Assembly: GCA_963169235.1 (NCBI GenBank) | Contig: CAUJCX010000035.1 | Coordinates: forward strand, 62,001-126,000 | Length of the DNA: 64,000 bases | Source of the DNA: Actinomycetota bacterium | GTDB lineage: Bacteria; Actinomycetota; Thermoleophilia; Miltoncostaeales; Miltoncostaeaceae | Direction: 5' to 3' | Shown: piece by piece, positions 6,939 through 22,228 of the stretch | Layout of the letters: each line of letters opens with the position of its first letter | Numbering within the stretch: the first letter of the stretch is position 1 | Program-made: the position numbers and the translations under genes | The notes under the pieces: model-generated | The model's database searches: none | Told to the model about the DNA's origin: nothing | The model's input: the letters and a program-made list of their open reading frames with translations, nothing else

Positions 6939-11601
<4,663 letters not shown>

Positions 11602-16187: not shown

Positions 16188-17033
16188 ATGGCGGGTGGGG
16201 TAGCCGCCGTGGTGGTCGGTGACGACGGCGCCACGCTGGCCCTCGTGCGCCAGGTGGACCACCAGCTGCAGTGCCGCGACATGGCGCGGGCCTGGGGCGC
16301 ACCGGGGTTCGCGCGCATCGACCACTGGGATTCCGTGGTGACGGCGGCCGCGCGGCACGACGACGGCTAGCGCGCACCGGACGAGGCGCCCGCCGTGGAC
16401 GACGATGGCCGCCCCGTCGACTTCCCCGACGTGGCCCGCGACCTCCACGCCGCGTTCTACGAGGATGGCATCGCCGACGTCTGCGCCGACGACGCGCGCG
16501 CCGGCCTGGTGTGCTGCCTGCACGGACGGGGGCTGTACGAGAAGCGCCTTGGCCTCGACGGGCCGATCCCCGACCGCGAAACGCGTCCCGCCGTCGAACG
16601 GGCCTTCATCACGCGCCAGCTCGACCGCCAGCGGGCTCTGGAGGACGCGCTCGGCTCCGGGGCGGACGCGTGGGCGCAGGATGCGTTCTTCCTGCTGCAG
16701 GCGTGGGACGCGCTCAGCCTGTACCTGGTGTGGACGGGCCTCCGACGCGGCGAGCCGTGGAGCCTGGCCAGGGTGCCGCGGGGGCCGGGAGCGGGGGCGG
16801 CCACGCTCGGCGTCGCGACGGTGGACGCGGTGACGGCGGCGGTCGACCCGTGGCCGTTCGACGTGGACGTGGTGGACGTACCGGTGGACGTCGTCACCGT
16901 CCCGGCGCGGCCGTACCCGTCGTCCGAGGCTCTGACGCGGGAGATCGCCGCGTCGGCGCCCTGCCGCGTGGCGTACCGGCTGGTGCCGGGAACCGCCGGG
17001 GCAGCGGGTCGCCGCCCTCCCCGGCACGCCTGA
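16188..17033 (+). pseudogene. DUF3891 family gene interrupted by one in-frame TAG
   Basis: One frame from ATG 16188 to 17033 encodes a DUF3891-like protein of about 280 codons, broken only by TAG at 16368-16370. Before the stop: LVRQVDHQLQCRDMARAWG and ARHDDG; after it: DDDGRPVDFPDV, GLVCCLHGRGLYEKRLG and FFLLQAWDALSLYLVW. In intact DUF3891 proteins the H-D-D/N-G motif is followed by tryptophan, so the stop sits exactly where TGG is expected: one G-to-A change. The function of the family is unknown. The downstream part could restart at a GTG near 16395, but that product would lack the histidine-bearing N-terminus. Codon use after the stop is still typical, so the event looks recent or is a sequencing error. 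Confidence 0.82.
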
Positions 17034-17686: not shown

Positions 17687-19141
17687 CTACTTGTCGGCGG
17701 GCTCCAGGTACTGGTCGATCACCTGCTGGGCCAGCGCCTGGTTGTCGGTGAGCACCACGCCCGAGCGCAGCGCGACGATGCCGCGCGCCTGCTGCTTGTT
17801 GAGCACCAGCGCGACGCCGAGGGCGATCTGGGCCTCGCCGTACGCCGCGTCGAGCGCCACGGCGTCGCGCGCCGGCTCCAGCGCCTCGCCGTCCTTGTCG
17901 TCGCGCACCAGGGAGAACGACTGGAACGCCGCCGACGTGGCGTCGCTGTCGTCGATGCGGCGCGCCTGCGCGAACGCCTGGGTGGCGGCGGTGTTGCGCC
18001 CCTGCTGGCTGAGGATGGTGGCCTTGGCCGTGGCGGCCTCCGCCATCCGCGGATCCTTCTTGAGCGCGCGGTTGTAAAAGCCCAGCGCCTTCTTCGGCTG
18101 CTTGAGGCGCTCCTGGATGCGGCCCTGCACCATCTGGCCGGGCGCCGACCGCTGCCAGGCGCGCGGCCAGGCGGCGACCAGCTTCTGGGCGGGAGCCGCC
18201 TTGCCCATGCGCGCGAGGTACATCGCCTGCGCGATGTTCGGGGTCATCACCTTGGGCGCGCGGCGCACGGCCACGGCCTGGACGGCCGTCAGGTCGGGCA
18301 CCGGGGTCCAGTCGGGCGCGAACGTGACCTGGAACGTGGTGCTCTTCGTGCCCCGCCGCACCTCCACCGGCACCGGCGTGCTGGCGGGCAGCGCCCGCAG
18401 CGCGGTCTGGTACTCACCCGTGGTCAGGGTGGGGAGGGAGTTGATCGCCACGATCACGTCACCGCGGCGCATGCCCGACTTCACCGAGTCGCCGCGCGGC
18501 GCGACGGCGGTGACCAGCTGGCCGCCGCGCGCGGGGATGCCCAGCGACCGGGCCAGCGGACGCCACAGCGGCAGCGTGTCCATGTCGAGCCGCCCGCGGG
18601 GGGTGGTGGTGGCCAGCACGATGGGCTTCTGCATCACGTTGGACTTGCGGCTCTGCGCGTCGGACGCCTGCAGGCGGATGCGGTACGTGCCGGCCGGCAG
18701 CTGGTAGCGCTGCTCGGATGTCGCCTCAATGAGCATGTAGACGCGACCCGCGGTCGTGGCGTCCGCCGTGACCGTGCGTACGAGCGTGTCGCCCTTCACG
18801 GCGAACACCTGCGCGGTGAGCGTGGACGGGGTCGTCACCCGGACGCCCAAGAGAAACCGCGCGTGCCCCTGGCGGGCCGTCACCTTCGCCGGCAGCTTGA
18901 GGTTGCGCAGCACGGGCGGGCCGGCGGCGACAGGCGCGGCGGTCGTCGTGGCGTCCGTGGTCGTCGCCGCCGGCGTGGCCGCGGCGGGGGGCGTGGACGT
19001 CGTGGTGGCCGCGGTGGTCGTGGCGGGTACGACGGGGACGACGGCCTGGGCCGGTGTGACCGGCGCTGCGACGGCGACGCCCGTGCCGATCGTTCCCAGG
19101 GCGCCGACGACCACGGCCAGGGAGAACGTGGGTCGGATCAT
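17687..19141 (-). CDS. Exported PDZ and TPR repeat protein
   Basis: 484 aa from ATG 19141. Signal peptide MIRPTFSLAVVVGALGTIGTG is followed by a Thr/Ala/Pro-rich low-complexity stretch (about 35-75). A beta-rich segment (about 75-190) comes next, then a PDZ-like domain (about 200-270) with VKSGMRRGDVIVAINSLP. Tetratricopeptide-like helices follow (about 330-470): KKALGFYNRALKKDPRMAEAATAK and similar pairs. It is probably a periplasmic or cell-wall scaffold; no protease triad is present. TAGGGT at 19149-19154 ends 7 nt before the ATG, diverging from the promoter of the next gene within 39 bp. Confidence 0.75.
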   Translation of the reverse strand: MIRPTFSLAVVVGALGTIGTGVAVAAPVTPAQAVVPVVPATTTAATTTSTPPAAATPAATTTDATTTAAPVAAGPPVLRNLKLPAKVTARQGHARFLLGVRVTTPSTLTAQVFAVKGDTLVRTVTADATTAGRVYMLIEATSEQRYQLPAGTYRIRLQASDAQSRKSNVMQKPIVLATTTPRGRLDMDTLPLWRPLARSLGIPARGGQLVTAVAPRGDSVKSGMRRGDVIVAINSLPTLTTGEYQTALRALPASTPVPVEVRRGTKSTTFQVTFAPDWTPVPDLTAVQAVAVRRAPKVMTPNIAQAMYLARMGKAAPAQKLVAAWPRAWQRSAPGQMVQGRIQERLKQPKKALGFYNRALKKDPRMAEAATAKATILSQQGRNTAATQAFAQARRIDDSDATSAAFQSFSLVRDDKDGEALEPARDAVALDAAYGEAQIALGVALVLNKQQARGIVALRSGVVLTDNQALAQQVIDQYLEPADK

Positions 19142-19148
19142 CCGGGCG

Positions 19149-19180: not shown

Positions 19181-20443
19181 ATGGCGTCGCGCATTGCCCC
19201 CCTGGAGTTCCTCGAGCGTTTCGCGGGCGGGGAACCGCTCGACGGCGATGCGACGCGTGGGTTCGTCGGCGACTGGGTGGGCCACGGGGTGCCCGACGCC
19301 CAGATGGCTGCGTGGATGGGCGTCGTGGCGCACCGTGGCCTCGGCGACGCCGCGCGCTACGCGCTGACGACAGAGCTGATCGCGTCGGGCGACCGCCTCG
19401 ACCTCGGGGGCCTGGGGCGCACGGCGGCGCTGGTCAGCACGGGCGCGCTGGGGGACGCCGTGCGCCTCGTCGCGGCGCCCACCCTGGCGGCCCTCGGTAT
19501 CCCCGTGCTGTGCGACGCGGAGCGCGCCGTGGGGTGCGTCGGAGGGCTCGCGGAGCAGCTCGGGGCGCTTCCCGGCTATCGCGAACCCGGCGACGTCGCC
19601 GACGTGGTCGCCGGCCTCACCTCCGGCGGCTACGTCCTCGCGAGCCGCCTCCCCGTCGTGCCGGCGGCGACGCGCCTGGCGGCCCTCGCCGACGTGACCG
19701 CGGCCGGCCGCATCCCGTCGCTGATCGCCGCGTCGGTGACGGCGCGCGCCCTGGCGCTGGGCACGCCTGTGGCGTGCGTGCACGTCACGTACGGCGACGC
19801 CGCCCTGGTGCCCGACCACGAGGGGGCGCGGGAGGTGGCGGCCACCGCGGAGGCGTTCGGCCGGGCGTGGGGGAGGCGCATCGTGTGCGTGCTCACCGAG
19901 ATGTCCACGCCGCTCGCCCCCGCGCTGGGGCATCGCCTGCTGGTGCACGAGGCCGCCCGCGTGCTGCGTGGCGGGGGCTCACCCGCGCTGCGGTCCGCCG
20001 CGCTCGACGTGGTCGCGGCGGTCGCGTCGGCCTCGGGGCTCGAGGGCGACGCCCGCGAGGGCGCCGGCCGGGCCCTGGCGGACGGACGCGCCAAGGCGGC
20101 GGCCGTCGCCTGGGGCGAGCGGCACGGCGTCGCGTCCGACGTGCTCACCGGCGCCACGGCCACGGGACTGGCGCCCCAGGTGCGCGAGGTGGCCGCCGGG
20201 CGGGACGGTGTGGTCGGCATCGCGTCGGTACTGCGCCTGGGCGAGGCCGTGCGCCGCCTCGGAGCCGGACGGCTGCACGCCGATCAGGCGGTGGACGGCG
20301 GCGTGGGCGTCGCGTTCACGGTGCCGCCGGGCGAGCAGGCCGAGGCGGGCGAGACCGTCGTCCACGTCTACGGCCGCGACGCGTACCTCACCGACCGCGC
20401 GGCGGAGGAGGTCTCGGCGCAGGTGACGGTGGGCGATGCCTGA
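19181..20443 (+). CDS. Thymidine/pyrimidine phosphorylase homologue lacking the active-site residues
   Basis: 420 aa, collinear with DeoA/Pdp enzymes: helical N-terminal bundle, nucleotide domain and a C-terminal PYNP_C-like domain (LHADQAVDGGVGVAFTVPPGEQAEAGE). The enzymes' phosphate loop KHSTGGVGD is LVSTGALGD here. SGRGLGHTGGT is replaced by DAERAVGCVGGL, and the pyrimidine-binding stretch with Arg, Ser and Lys (R171, S186, K190 in E. coli) reads LADVTAAGRIPSLIAASVTARA. MDVKVGSGAF becomes VHVTYGDAAL. The fold is probably kept but phosphorolysis is unlikely. It overlaps mutM by 8 nt, so it is co-expressed with a base-excision repair enzyme. Function unknown. Confidence 0.75.
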   Translation: MASRIAPLEFLERFAGGEPLDGDATRGFVGDWVGHGVPDAQMAAWMGVVAHRGLGDAARYALTTELIASGDRLDLGGLGRTAALVSTGALGDAVRLVAAPTLAALGIPVLCDAERAVGCVGGLAEQLGALPGYREPGDVADVVAGLTSGGYVLASRLPVVPAATRLAALADVTAAGRIPSLIAASVTARALALGTPVACVHVTYGDAALVPDHEGAREVAATAEAFGRAWGRRIVCVLTEMSTPLAPALGHRLLVHEAARVLRGGGSPALRSAALDVVAAVASASGLEGDAREGAGRALADGRAKAAAVAWGERHGVASDVLTGATATGLAPQVREVAAGRDGVVGIASVLRLGEAVRRLGAGRLHADQAVDGGVGVAFTVPPGEQAEAGETVVHVYGRDAYLTDRAAEEVSAQVTVGDA

Positions 20444-21275
20444 GCTACCCGAGGTGGAGACCGTGCGGCGGCAGCTGTCGCGCCACCTCCCGGGCCGCAT
20501 CGTCGTCGCCGTCGACGTGCGCGATCCCCTGCTGACCGCACCCGCGCACCCGGATGAGCTGGGACTGCTGGTCGGGCGCGAGATCCGGCGCCTGGGCCGT
20601 CGCGGCAAGTACCTGATGGTGCACCTGGACGACGGCGCGGTACTGGTGGTGCACCTGCGCATGACCGGCGCGCTGCGGTGGCACCCCCCGGGCGACGACG
20701 TGGAGGGCCTGCGCTTCCTGCGGGCCGTCGTCACCCTCGATGACGGCGCGCACGTCACGTTCTGCGACCAGCGCCGCTTCGGCCGCATGGTGCTGCTCGC
20801 CCCGGGCGGCGACCCCGAGGCGTACTGGCGCGGCCGGGTGGGCGTGGAGCCACTGTCCGCCCACTTCGACTCCGCGGCGCTCGGCGCCGCCCTGCGCGGC
20901 CGGCGTACGCCGGTGAAGGCGGCGCTGCTCAACCAGGCGCTGGTCGCCGGGGTGGGCAACATCTACGCCGACGAGGCGCTGTTCGAGGCGGGCGTCCACC
21001 CCGAGACGCCCGCCGGCCGCCTCAGCCGCGCCCGGGTGGCGGCCCTGGCCGACGCGGTCGCGCGGGTGCTCGCTCGCGGGCTCGACGCCGGGGGTGCGAC
21101 CATCCGTGACTACAGCGACGCGGAAGGCGGTGCGGGGTCGATGCAGGATCTCCTCAACGTGCACGTACGCGAGGGGCTGCCGTGCCCGCGGTGCGGCACG
21201 ACGATCGTGAAGACGCGCGTGGCCCAGCGCGGCACCTATCTGTGTCCCTCGTGCCAGCGCAAGGGGCGGCGATGA
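20436..21275 (+). CDS. mutM: Formamidopyrimidine-DNA glycosylase
   Basis: 279 aa. Removes oxidised purines such as 8-oxoguanine and nicks the abasic site. MPELPEVETV at the N-terminus carries the catalytic Pro2 and Glu3; GRRGKYL contains the conserved lysine. The helix-two-turn-helix has NQALVAGVGNIYADEALF, and the zinc finger cysteines are C250, C253, C270 and C273. All catalytic elements are intact. It overlaps the thymidine-phosphorylase homologue upstream and the P1 peptidase downstream (ATGA). Confidence 0.96.
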   Translation: MPELPEVETVRRQLSRHLPGRIVVAVDVRDPLLTAPAHPDELGLLVGREIRRLGRRGKYLMVHLDDGAVLVVHLRMTGALRWHPPGDDVEGLRFLRAVVTLDDGAHVTFCDQRRFGRMVLLAPGGDPEAYWRGRVGVEPLSAHFDSAALGAALRGRRTPVKAALLNQALVAGVGNIYADEALFEAGVHPETPAGRLSRARVAALADAVARVLARGLDAGGATIRDYSDAEGGAGSMQDLLNVHVREGLPCPRCGTTIVKTRVAQRGTYLCPSCQRKGRR

Positions 21276-22228
21276 CCGCGCACGTCGCCGGTGTCGACGT
21301 CGGTCATTGGACCGATATCGAAGCGGGAACCGGCTGTACGGTGATCATTCCACCGCGCGGGACGGTGGCGGGGGTCGACGTGCGGGGCGGGGGAGCCAGC
21401 ACCCGCGAGGGGGCCCTGCTGGAGCCGCTGTCCAACGTGCCGGGCCCCACCGCCCTGCTGCTCACCGGCGGCAGCGCCCTGGGCCTGGATGCGGCCGCCG
21501 GCGTCACCCGCTGGTGCCTCGAGAACGGCCTGGGCCACGACGTCGCGGTGGCGACGGTCCCCATCGTCGCGGCCGCCGTGGTCTTCGACCTGGGCATCAG
21601 CGGGGGGAAGCGCACCCCCGGGCCGGACGACGCCTACGCGGCGTGCCGCGCCGCGGGACCCATCACCGGCGCGCAGGGCTGCGTCGGGGCGGGTACGGGC
21701 GCGACGGTCGGCAAGTACTTCGGCCACGACGGCTGGTGCAAGGGCGGACTGGGCGTGGCGTCCGCGTCCACCTACGAGGGCACCACCGTGACGGCCATCG
21801 TGGTGGTGAACGCGTTCGGCGACGTGGTCGACGAGCAGGGCGCGGTGCTGGCAGGGGCGTGGCGGGACGGGCAGGGGTTCGTCGGCACGGCGCGCTACGC
21901 GCGGCGGCATCCCCCCACGCATCCGCGCATCGCGCCCAGCAACACGACCCTGGCGTGCGTCGTCACCGATGCCGCGCTCGACAAGGCCGGGGCGGCGCAG
22001 CTGGCGCGCATGGGGTCGGCCGGTGTGTGCCGCGCCATCACACCGGTCAACACGTCGCTCGACGGCGACGTCACCTACGCGCTCGCCACGGGGGCCCGGC
22101 CGGGGACGGCGCTCGCGTGCGGGCTCGTCGCCGCCGCGGTGGTGGAGGAGGCCGTGCGCGGAGCGGTGACCGCGGCGGTCAGCGTCCGGGGCGTGCCGAC
22201 GGGCGCCGAGCGCCGGGCCGCGGGCTAG
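21272..22228 (+). CDS. P1 family peptidase (S58, DmpA-like)
   Basis: 318 aa from ATG 21272. The N-terminal GVDVGHWTDIEAGTGCTVI, the LLTGGSALGLDAAAGV segment, and NTTLACVVTDAALDKAGAAQLARM match P1/DmpA aminopeptidases. These are Ntn-type enzymes that self-cleave before a Ser/Thr nucleophile, here probably in the SNTTLACVVTDA segment. TPVNTSLDGDVTYAL supplies the conserved oxyanion region. Substrates in this subgroup are mostly unknown (D-amino acid or beta-peptides in DmpA and BapA). Third gene of the mutM operon; its TAG stop overlaps the opposing glutaredoxin stop in a CTAG. Confidence 0.88.
   Translation: MTAHVAGVDVGHWTDIEAGTGCTVIIPPRGTVAGVDVRGGGASTREGALLEPLSNVPGPTALLLTGGSALGLDAAAGVTRWCLENGLGHDVAVATVPIVAAAVVFDLGISGGKRTPGPDDAYAACRAAGPITGAQGCVGAGTGATVGKYFGHDGWCKGGLGVASASTYEGTTVTAIVVVNAFGDVVDEQGAVLAGAWRDGQGFVGTARYARRHPPTHPRIAPSNTTLACVVTDAALDKAGAAQLARMGSAGVCRAITPVNTSLDGDVTYALATGARPGTALACGLVAAAVVEEAVRGAVTAAVSVRGVPTGAERRAAG

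Follow-up and report, generated by a model that had tools for sequence, protein, structure and literature searches.

The closest described relatives of the protein considered here are the pyrimidine-nucleoside phosphorylases (PyNP) and thymidine phosphorylases of the NP-II type (TIGR02644, DeoA/Pdp; structures 1brw and 2dsj), which have a three-domain fold including the PYNP_C domain. Residue positions are given here in E. coli numbering. Roles at the pyrimidine site are described for Arg171, Ser186, Lys190 and His85 in the accessible part of PMC5238616, and the set R171, S186, K190, H85 and Y168 is drawn from the accessible parts of PMC5238616 and PMC8347464. The other relative of interest is YbiB of E. 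coli, from the TrpD2 family. According to the part of PMC10123104 available to us, YbiB shares the superfamily fold, lacks the catalytic function, consists of two domains with positively charged grooves, binds nucleic acids, and belongs to a LexA-regulated operon with dinG. No paper joining pyrimidine nucleoside phosphorylase with pseudoenzyme was found in the open-licence literature, where nothing related appeared for thymidine phosphorylase, mutM and operon either; judged from open-licence papers only, the degenerate, mutM-linked PyNP lineage presented below is not in print.

The window, that is, the whole stretch of 64,000 nucleotides that was analysed, contains at 19181-20443 on the plus strand an ATG-TGA frame of 420 codons with a codon-position GC of 0.836/0.576/0.940, which matches the expectation for a coding frame in this DNA. 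Its product is a real thymidine/pyrimidine-nucleoside phosphorylase homologue. TIGR02644 matches residues 21-416 (E 2e-59) with 201.5 bits, below the curated cut-off of 409.05, so that the homology is full-length while the score falls short of the curated family. PYNP_C, at residues 349-416 (E 1.3e-11), is the sole Pfam domain over its cut-off, two further domains scoring slightly under theirs, and the best solved relative is PDB 2dsj (E 5.9e-40). These matches bear out the preliminary description, which had recognised an open frame of 420 codons of the DeoA/Pdp family. The genes of the locus are the following:

17687..19144, minus strand: divergent upstream gene for a PDZ/TPR protein; G010 has one upstream of its canonical copy as well
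19181..20443, plus strand: protein of the PyNP/thymidine-phosphorylase fold, 420 aa, which has lost the catalytic motifs (2 of 10 core residues kept)
20436..20443, plus strand: overlap of the PyNP-like gene and mutM, 8 nt, ATGCCTGA
20436..21275, plus strand: mutM, formamidopyrimidine-DNA glycosylase, passing the NCBIfam equivalog cut-off (NF002211, 292 bits, cut-off 212)
21272..22228, plus strand: S58 peptidase-family gene, third of the unit, also 3' of mutM in most family loci

In three loci of another family (f3; L016, L019 and L027), no such S58 gene was observed behind mutM.

Ligand residues were scored as the number kept at ten core positions, all of which are invariant in the 22 canonical rows compared (identity 1.000). 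The protein of the window scores 2 of 10. The alignment gives the substitutions K84 to L, H85 to V, S113 to A, T120 to V, T123 to L, Y168 to A, R171 to A, D203 to H and K205 to T, and the conservative replacement of K190 by Arg (R189). The segments concerned are listed below, with one stretch of the C-terminal domain:

19421..19456, plus strand: phosphate loop, residues 81-92, where TAALVSTGALGD replaces VDKHSTGGVGD (K84 to L, H85 to V, S86 kept; from the alignment)
19514..19549, plus strand: second ligand loop, residues 112-123, where DAERAVGCVGGL replaces (M)SGRGLGHTGGT (S113 to A, T120 to V, T123 to L)
19679..19747, plus strand: pyrimidine site, residues 167-189 (Y168 to A167, R171 to A170, S186 kept as S185, K190 to R189)
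19778..19807, plus strand: residues 200-209, where VHVTYGDAAL replaces LDVKVGSGAF
20252..20308, plus strand: C-terminal domain stretch R358..G376, RRLGAGRLHADQAVDGGVG

In the phosphate site, which we take to consist of K84, S86, S113 and T123, S86 alone is kept, and at the pyrimidine site S186 alone. The preliminary description had every signature loop replaced. Most of these losses are confirmed, but S86 with the STG..GD turn of the phosphate loop and S186 are retained, and the score is not zero. From these residues, phosphorolysis has very probably been lost. That the protein is an ordinary PyNP with unusual residues would agree with the fold and with the presence of S86, S186 and an arginine at 190; it is extremely improbable given the joint loss of K84, S113, T123, Y168 and R171 from a core that canonical enzymes leave unchanged, and given a canonical copy in the same genome. 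In the C-terminal stretch, R358, G361, G363, Q369, D372 and G376 are invariant across 34 linked copies (PyNP-type genes adjoining mutM), and Q369 is absent in all 22 canonical rows.

An AlphaFold2 model computed from 11 sequences has a mean pLDDT of 88.7 and a pTM of 0.89. The ten other rows of the alignment, two proteins from Bacillota/Clostridia genomes and eight from viral-collection contigs, have mostly canonical motifs and may pull the model toward the canonical fold. An earlier model from three sequences was poor (pLDDT 45.4) and was left unused. The nearest chains are PyNPs and thymidine phosphorylases, and 1brw_A superimposes with Z 45.3, TM 0.89 and an rmsd of 2.7 Å over 415 residues, so that the predicted three-domain fold agrees with solved PyNPs over its whole length, as the preliminary description had supposed of the overall fold. 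AMP phosphorylase (4ga4/4ga5) shares the fold and the superfamily (Z 41.3 and 36.8), but at only 19-20% identity and with a weak TIGR03327 match (61.8 bits, cut-off 535). With anthranilate phosphoribosyltransferase TrpD the fold is common to the first two domains (Z about 24, model residues 3-319), whereas the aligned range includes no PYNP_C part and the identity is about 17%. No YbiB entry is among the 50 structure matches listed, which says nothing on relationship. To judge from its PYNP_C domain, set against the two-domain TrpD2 monomer, the protein falls outside the TrpD2 family; it arose from a PyNP, separately from YbiB. It resembles YbiB, as presented in the accessible part of PMC10123104, as a superfamily member without catalytic function kept for another role, and differs in its additional domain and in its net charge of -11. 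By analogy, YbiB is the best precedent for a non-catalytic binding protein.

Orthologues were sought in 61 genomes, the window's own (G000) and 60 relatives, of which 47 gave a match. A MutM-type match is present in 42/42 genomes of the family and a linked phosphorylase-like gene in 37; G007, G015, G027 and G064 yielded neither a linked copy nor an orthologous mutM. Thirty-five linked copies are full-length, after leaving out two partial ones at contig ends (G021, G032) and a fragment (G014). Two of these score 10/10 (G010, G016), five score 6-9 (G012, 9; G004, 8; G013 and G023, 7; G020, 6), and 28 score 0-4. By comparison, all ten full-length unlinked copies of the family score 10 of 10, including that of the window's genome (G000:C18). 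The TIGR02644 cut-off is passed in 12/42 genomes, by the ten unlinked copies and by the linked copies of G010 and G016. Orthologues with canonical motifs, which the preliminary description would have taken as a refutation, thus exist in part: G010 and G016, of the same family and locus, keep the canonical set. Twenty-eight columns are invariant across 34 linked sequences. The conserved residues specific to the family are mostly already present in intact copies, and therefore need not mark a new function.

Lysine is nearly missing from the 28 degenerate linked copies, the window's included, with 0-4 residues per about 420 (mean 0.22%), compared with 3-12 for the MutM proteins of these genomes (1.56%) and 8-9 for the canonical copies of the family. 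Only 3 of 40 ORFs of the window are equally poor in lysine, all of them shorter. This scarcity is probably due to Lys-to-Arg drift after the catalytic lysines were freed.

The losses took place in several lineages. On the ML tree, a loss-only count gives 4 losses of K84, 7 of S113, 7 of T123, 4 of R171 and 5 of K190, and unordered (Fitch) parsimony 3, 5, 5, 4 and 4 changes, respectively. K84 was thus lost at least four times under the loss-only count; the exact counts are soft because several long branches meet in the tree (G005 with G011; G002 with the genus of the window). K84 is missing from each of the five partly degenerate copies, and most of the pyrimidine site is present in them. The exception among degenerate copies is G011, with K84 kept and the pyrimidine site lost. 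Across the 28 degenerate rows, 16 of which come from one genus and so are not independent, K84 is kept in 1, S113 in 1, S86 in 24 and R171 in 23, and position 190 is Arg in 25. K84 is replaced mostly by aliphatic residues, S113 and Y168 mostly by Gly or Ala.

In the 36 family loci where it could be measured, the PyNP-like gene and mutM are always on the same strand. The frames overlap in 34 of them, by 8 nt in 13 and by 1 nt in 21; in the remaining two they are separated by 2 and 9 nt. From this arrangement, the two genes are probably translationally coupled. Such tight overlap would also be expected of a relic leader frame, open only since the ribosomes finishing it start mutM, with selection acting on translation and not on the protein. 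The rate of evolution agrees with this to some extent: the mean identity of degenerate copies is lower than that of mutM, both in genus g9 (0.677 vs 0.775) and outside it (0.431 vs 0.597), while canonical f3 copies show the reverse (0.703 vs 0.630). Drift of the core columns outside g9, described below, points the same way. Against it, NG86 dN/dS is 0.082-0.167 in 12/13 close degenerate pairs, values far below 1 have for the most part already been observed in g9, and a remnant kept only as a frame is expected to shorten, which is not observed. Together, the low dN/dS, the 28 invariant columns and the full-length fold indicate that the amino acids are selected, and we consider a leader-frame relic quite unlikely.

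The dN/dS values of the degenerate pairs are close to those of mutM and of canonical unlinked copies (0.070-0.297, 4 pairs); at 0.08-0.17 in 12 pairs, they support the proposal that the frame is under selection and not decaying. The only close pair that includes the window's gene, G000/G001, is 53% identical and has a dN/dS of 0.467, compared with mutM at 0.330 and the canonical copy at 0.297; the gene is constrained but relaxed, not neutral, with dS uncertain at this GC. A pseudogene was rejected on the grounds of the low dN/dS (0.08-0.17 in 12/13 degenerate pairs, 0.467 in the window's own) and of a broken frame in G012 alone out of the 35 full-length linked copies. Retention of a function at the protein level is well supported across the family, and less firmly so for the window's gene, which has one distant pair. 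The linked copy of G012 itself (L073, minus strand near 8280-8320; score 9/10, deoB present) is split by a frame break in a one-contig assembly, and may be a real pseudogene or show a sequencing error.

Whether the altered motifs are themselves conserved depends on the lineage to which the copies belong. Those of g9 show higher conservation at the ten core columns than at the remainder (0.858 vs 0.670, a value reached in 95 of 5000 random draws), whereas in the 12 degenerate rows outside g9 they are less so (0.290 vs 0.428; 4742 of 5000 draws). Between G000 and G001, 22 of 32 motif columns agree, against 53% identity overall. The drift outside g9 speaks against a common new ligand. The conserved cleft of g9 could belong to a changed enzyme, catalysing another reaction (on a different nucleoside, a hydrolysis, or a transfer without inorganic phosphate). 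The frequent R171 and Arg190 of the degenerate rows would suit such a cleft, and the superfamily includes phosphoribosyltransferases (accessible part of PMC10123104), with TrpD among the structure matches. However, no conserved polar or acidic set fit for catalysis arose in parallel, the replacements being mostly aliphatic at K84 and Gly or Ala at S113 and Y168, and R171 is a further point of difference between the protein of the window and that of its congener. A change of reaction is unlikely.

The age of the link with mutM was examined outside the family, in 257 genomes, of which 127 gave a match, weak ones included. The 45 loci examined were picked by best score and family spread, not at random. 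Their phosphorylases score 10/10 in 44 cases and 9/10 in one. The next gene downstream on the same strand is mutM in 22/45, within 83 nt in 17 of them, the flanks being often about 1.5 kb, so that the absence of mutM there is uninformative; the frames overlap in three loci, by 8 nt in two genomes and by 1 nt in one. Four further families of the class (f3, f8, f11 and f12) have a canonical phosphorylase directly upstream of mutM and in its orientation, and one locus, L099, has the order deoB-type gene, canonical PyNP, mutM and recO-like gene (the recO label comes from the look of the gene start only). With the same adjacency found elsewhere for PyNPs with canonical motifs, the mutM synteny and coupling are older than the motif loss. 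A scan of viral contigs with the linked-copy alignment gave zero relatives, and with canonical copies it gave nine canonical-type PyNP genes on IMG/VR contigs (L186-L194).

The overlap with mutM had been taken as a hint of a repair-linked or regulatory role. This is not borne out, as the canonical copies of f3, f8, f11 and f12 share the adjacency: since the arrangement was inherited from catalytic-type enzymes, the coupling is no evidence of a repair role, and an argument from coupling alone was rejected. A partner of MutM, which would contact it, handle its product or regulate it, nevertheless has in its favour the constancy of the same-strand, mostly overlapping arrangement and the example of YbiB, a non-catalytic relative that binds nucleic acid and belongs to a LexA-regulated operon (PMC10123104, accessible part). 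Here, no LexA-like box with at most one mismatch lies between 16607 and 28186; the nearest matches are at 16596 and 28186, and 21 matches were counted for 13.1 expected. SOS control of the locus was rejected for lack of such a site near the gene. The net charge is also unlike that of a nucleic-acid-binding surface, although a groove would not be apparent from net charge. Such a partnership is distinctly improbable, while a MutM-specific role of some kind is possible but unsupported.

The genomic context of the pathway has changed as well. In the family, deoC is over its cut-off in 37/42 genomes and deoB in two only, G010 (linked copy at 10) and G012 (linked copy at 9); none was found in G016, whose linked copy scores 10/10. 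In G010, deoB immediately follows a DUF3891 gene, of which the window has a homologue (49% identical over 175 aa) without deoB following. This homologue, at 16209-17033 on the plus strand, has an in-frame stop at about 16368, directly after HDDG, where that of G010 continues; the gene is broken or starts late, or the sequence is in error.

A canonical PyNP is encoded elsewhere in 10 family genomes. A true deoA/pdp was thus found in the genome of the window, G000:C18, next to genes for a Bmp-type binding protein, an ABC ATPase, a permease, an adenosine deaminase, a PfkB kinase, an Indigoidine_A-family protein and an aldehyde dehydrogenase, with deoC on the same contig. By its gene content this is a neighbourhood of nucleoside uptake and breakdown. 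No canonical PyNP was found in 19/28 genomes with a degenerate copy (the 16 of g9, G002, G003 and G005), and genomes without one include assemblies that are 97-99% complete (G002, G005, G009, G018). A second, canonical copy accompanies 9/28 degenerate and 0/7 non-degenerate linked copies, a difference that is not significant (Fisher p 0.15). The genome of the window also has a distant MutM/Nei-type gene and a second deoC lying back to back (G000:C3:45347-46919), a pair that recurs in several family genomes.

We consider it likely that the gene belongs to a pseudoenzyme-like PyNP lineage, parallel to YbiB/TrpD2, which goes back to an ancestral deoB/PyNP/mutM locus and is maintained by purifying selection, now probably acting in binding or as a scaffold and not in catalysis. 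The gene order shows vertical descent from an ordinary PyNP in this neighbourhood. The deoB step vanished from nearly all genomes of the family, and in some, including the window's, a second canonical PyNP near nucleoside-uptake genes covers the reaction. Subsequently, several lineages lost the residues that bind phosphate from the mutM-linked copy, the protein being kept just ahead of MutM, probably coupled to it, with its three-domain fold and under purifying selection. What it does at present, the weakest step, would most likely be binding or protein contact: the hinge cleft might hold a nucleobase-like ligand without phosphate, or the dimer surface might serve as a scaffold. A re-purposed ligand site would fit the conserved altered cleft of g9, and in the other lineages the fold is kept and the cleft has drifted. 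A more specific extension is quite doubtful. It would have a family-wide, non-catalytic class derived from PyNP, independent of YbiB, turn from nucleoside breakdown to the part of a sensor or scaffold for an operon of base-excision repair, where the g9 cleft, rebuilt as a conserved hydrophobic pocket with two flanking arginines, ties MutM output or activity to a nucleobase ligand.

For annotation, the family is a warning. By homology, 28/35 linked copies could be named thymidine phosphorylase, and in the 19 genomes that have a degenerate copy but yielded no canonical PyNP, salvage of pyrimidine nucleosides would be predicted in error. At the same time, one family presents here, at one locus and in one operon, a graded series of a well-studied enzyme that runs from intact through partly to fully degenerate, so that the sequence of steps by which the chemistry was lost, and the reason why the protein stays, can be tested directly.
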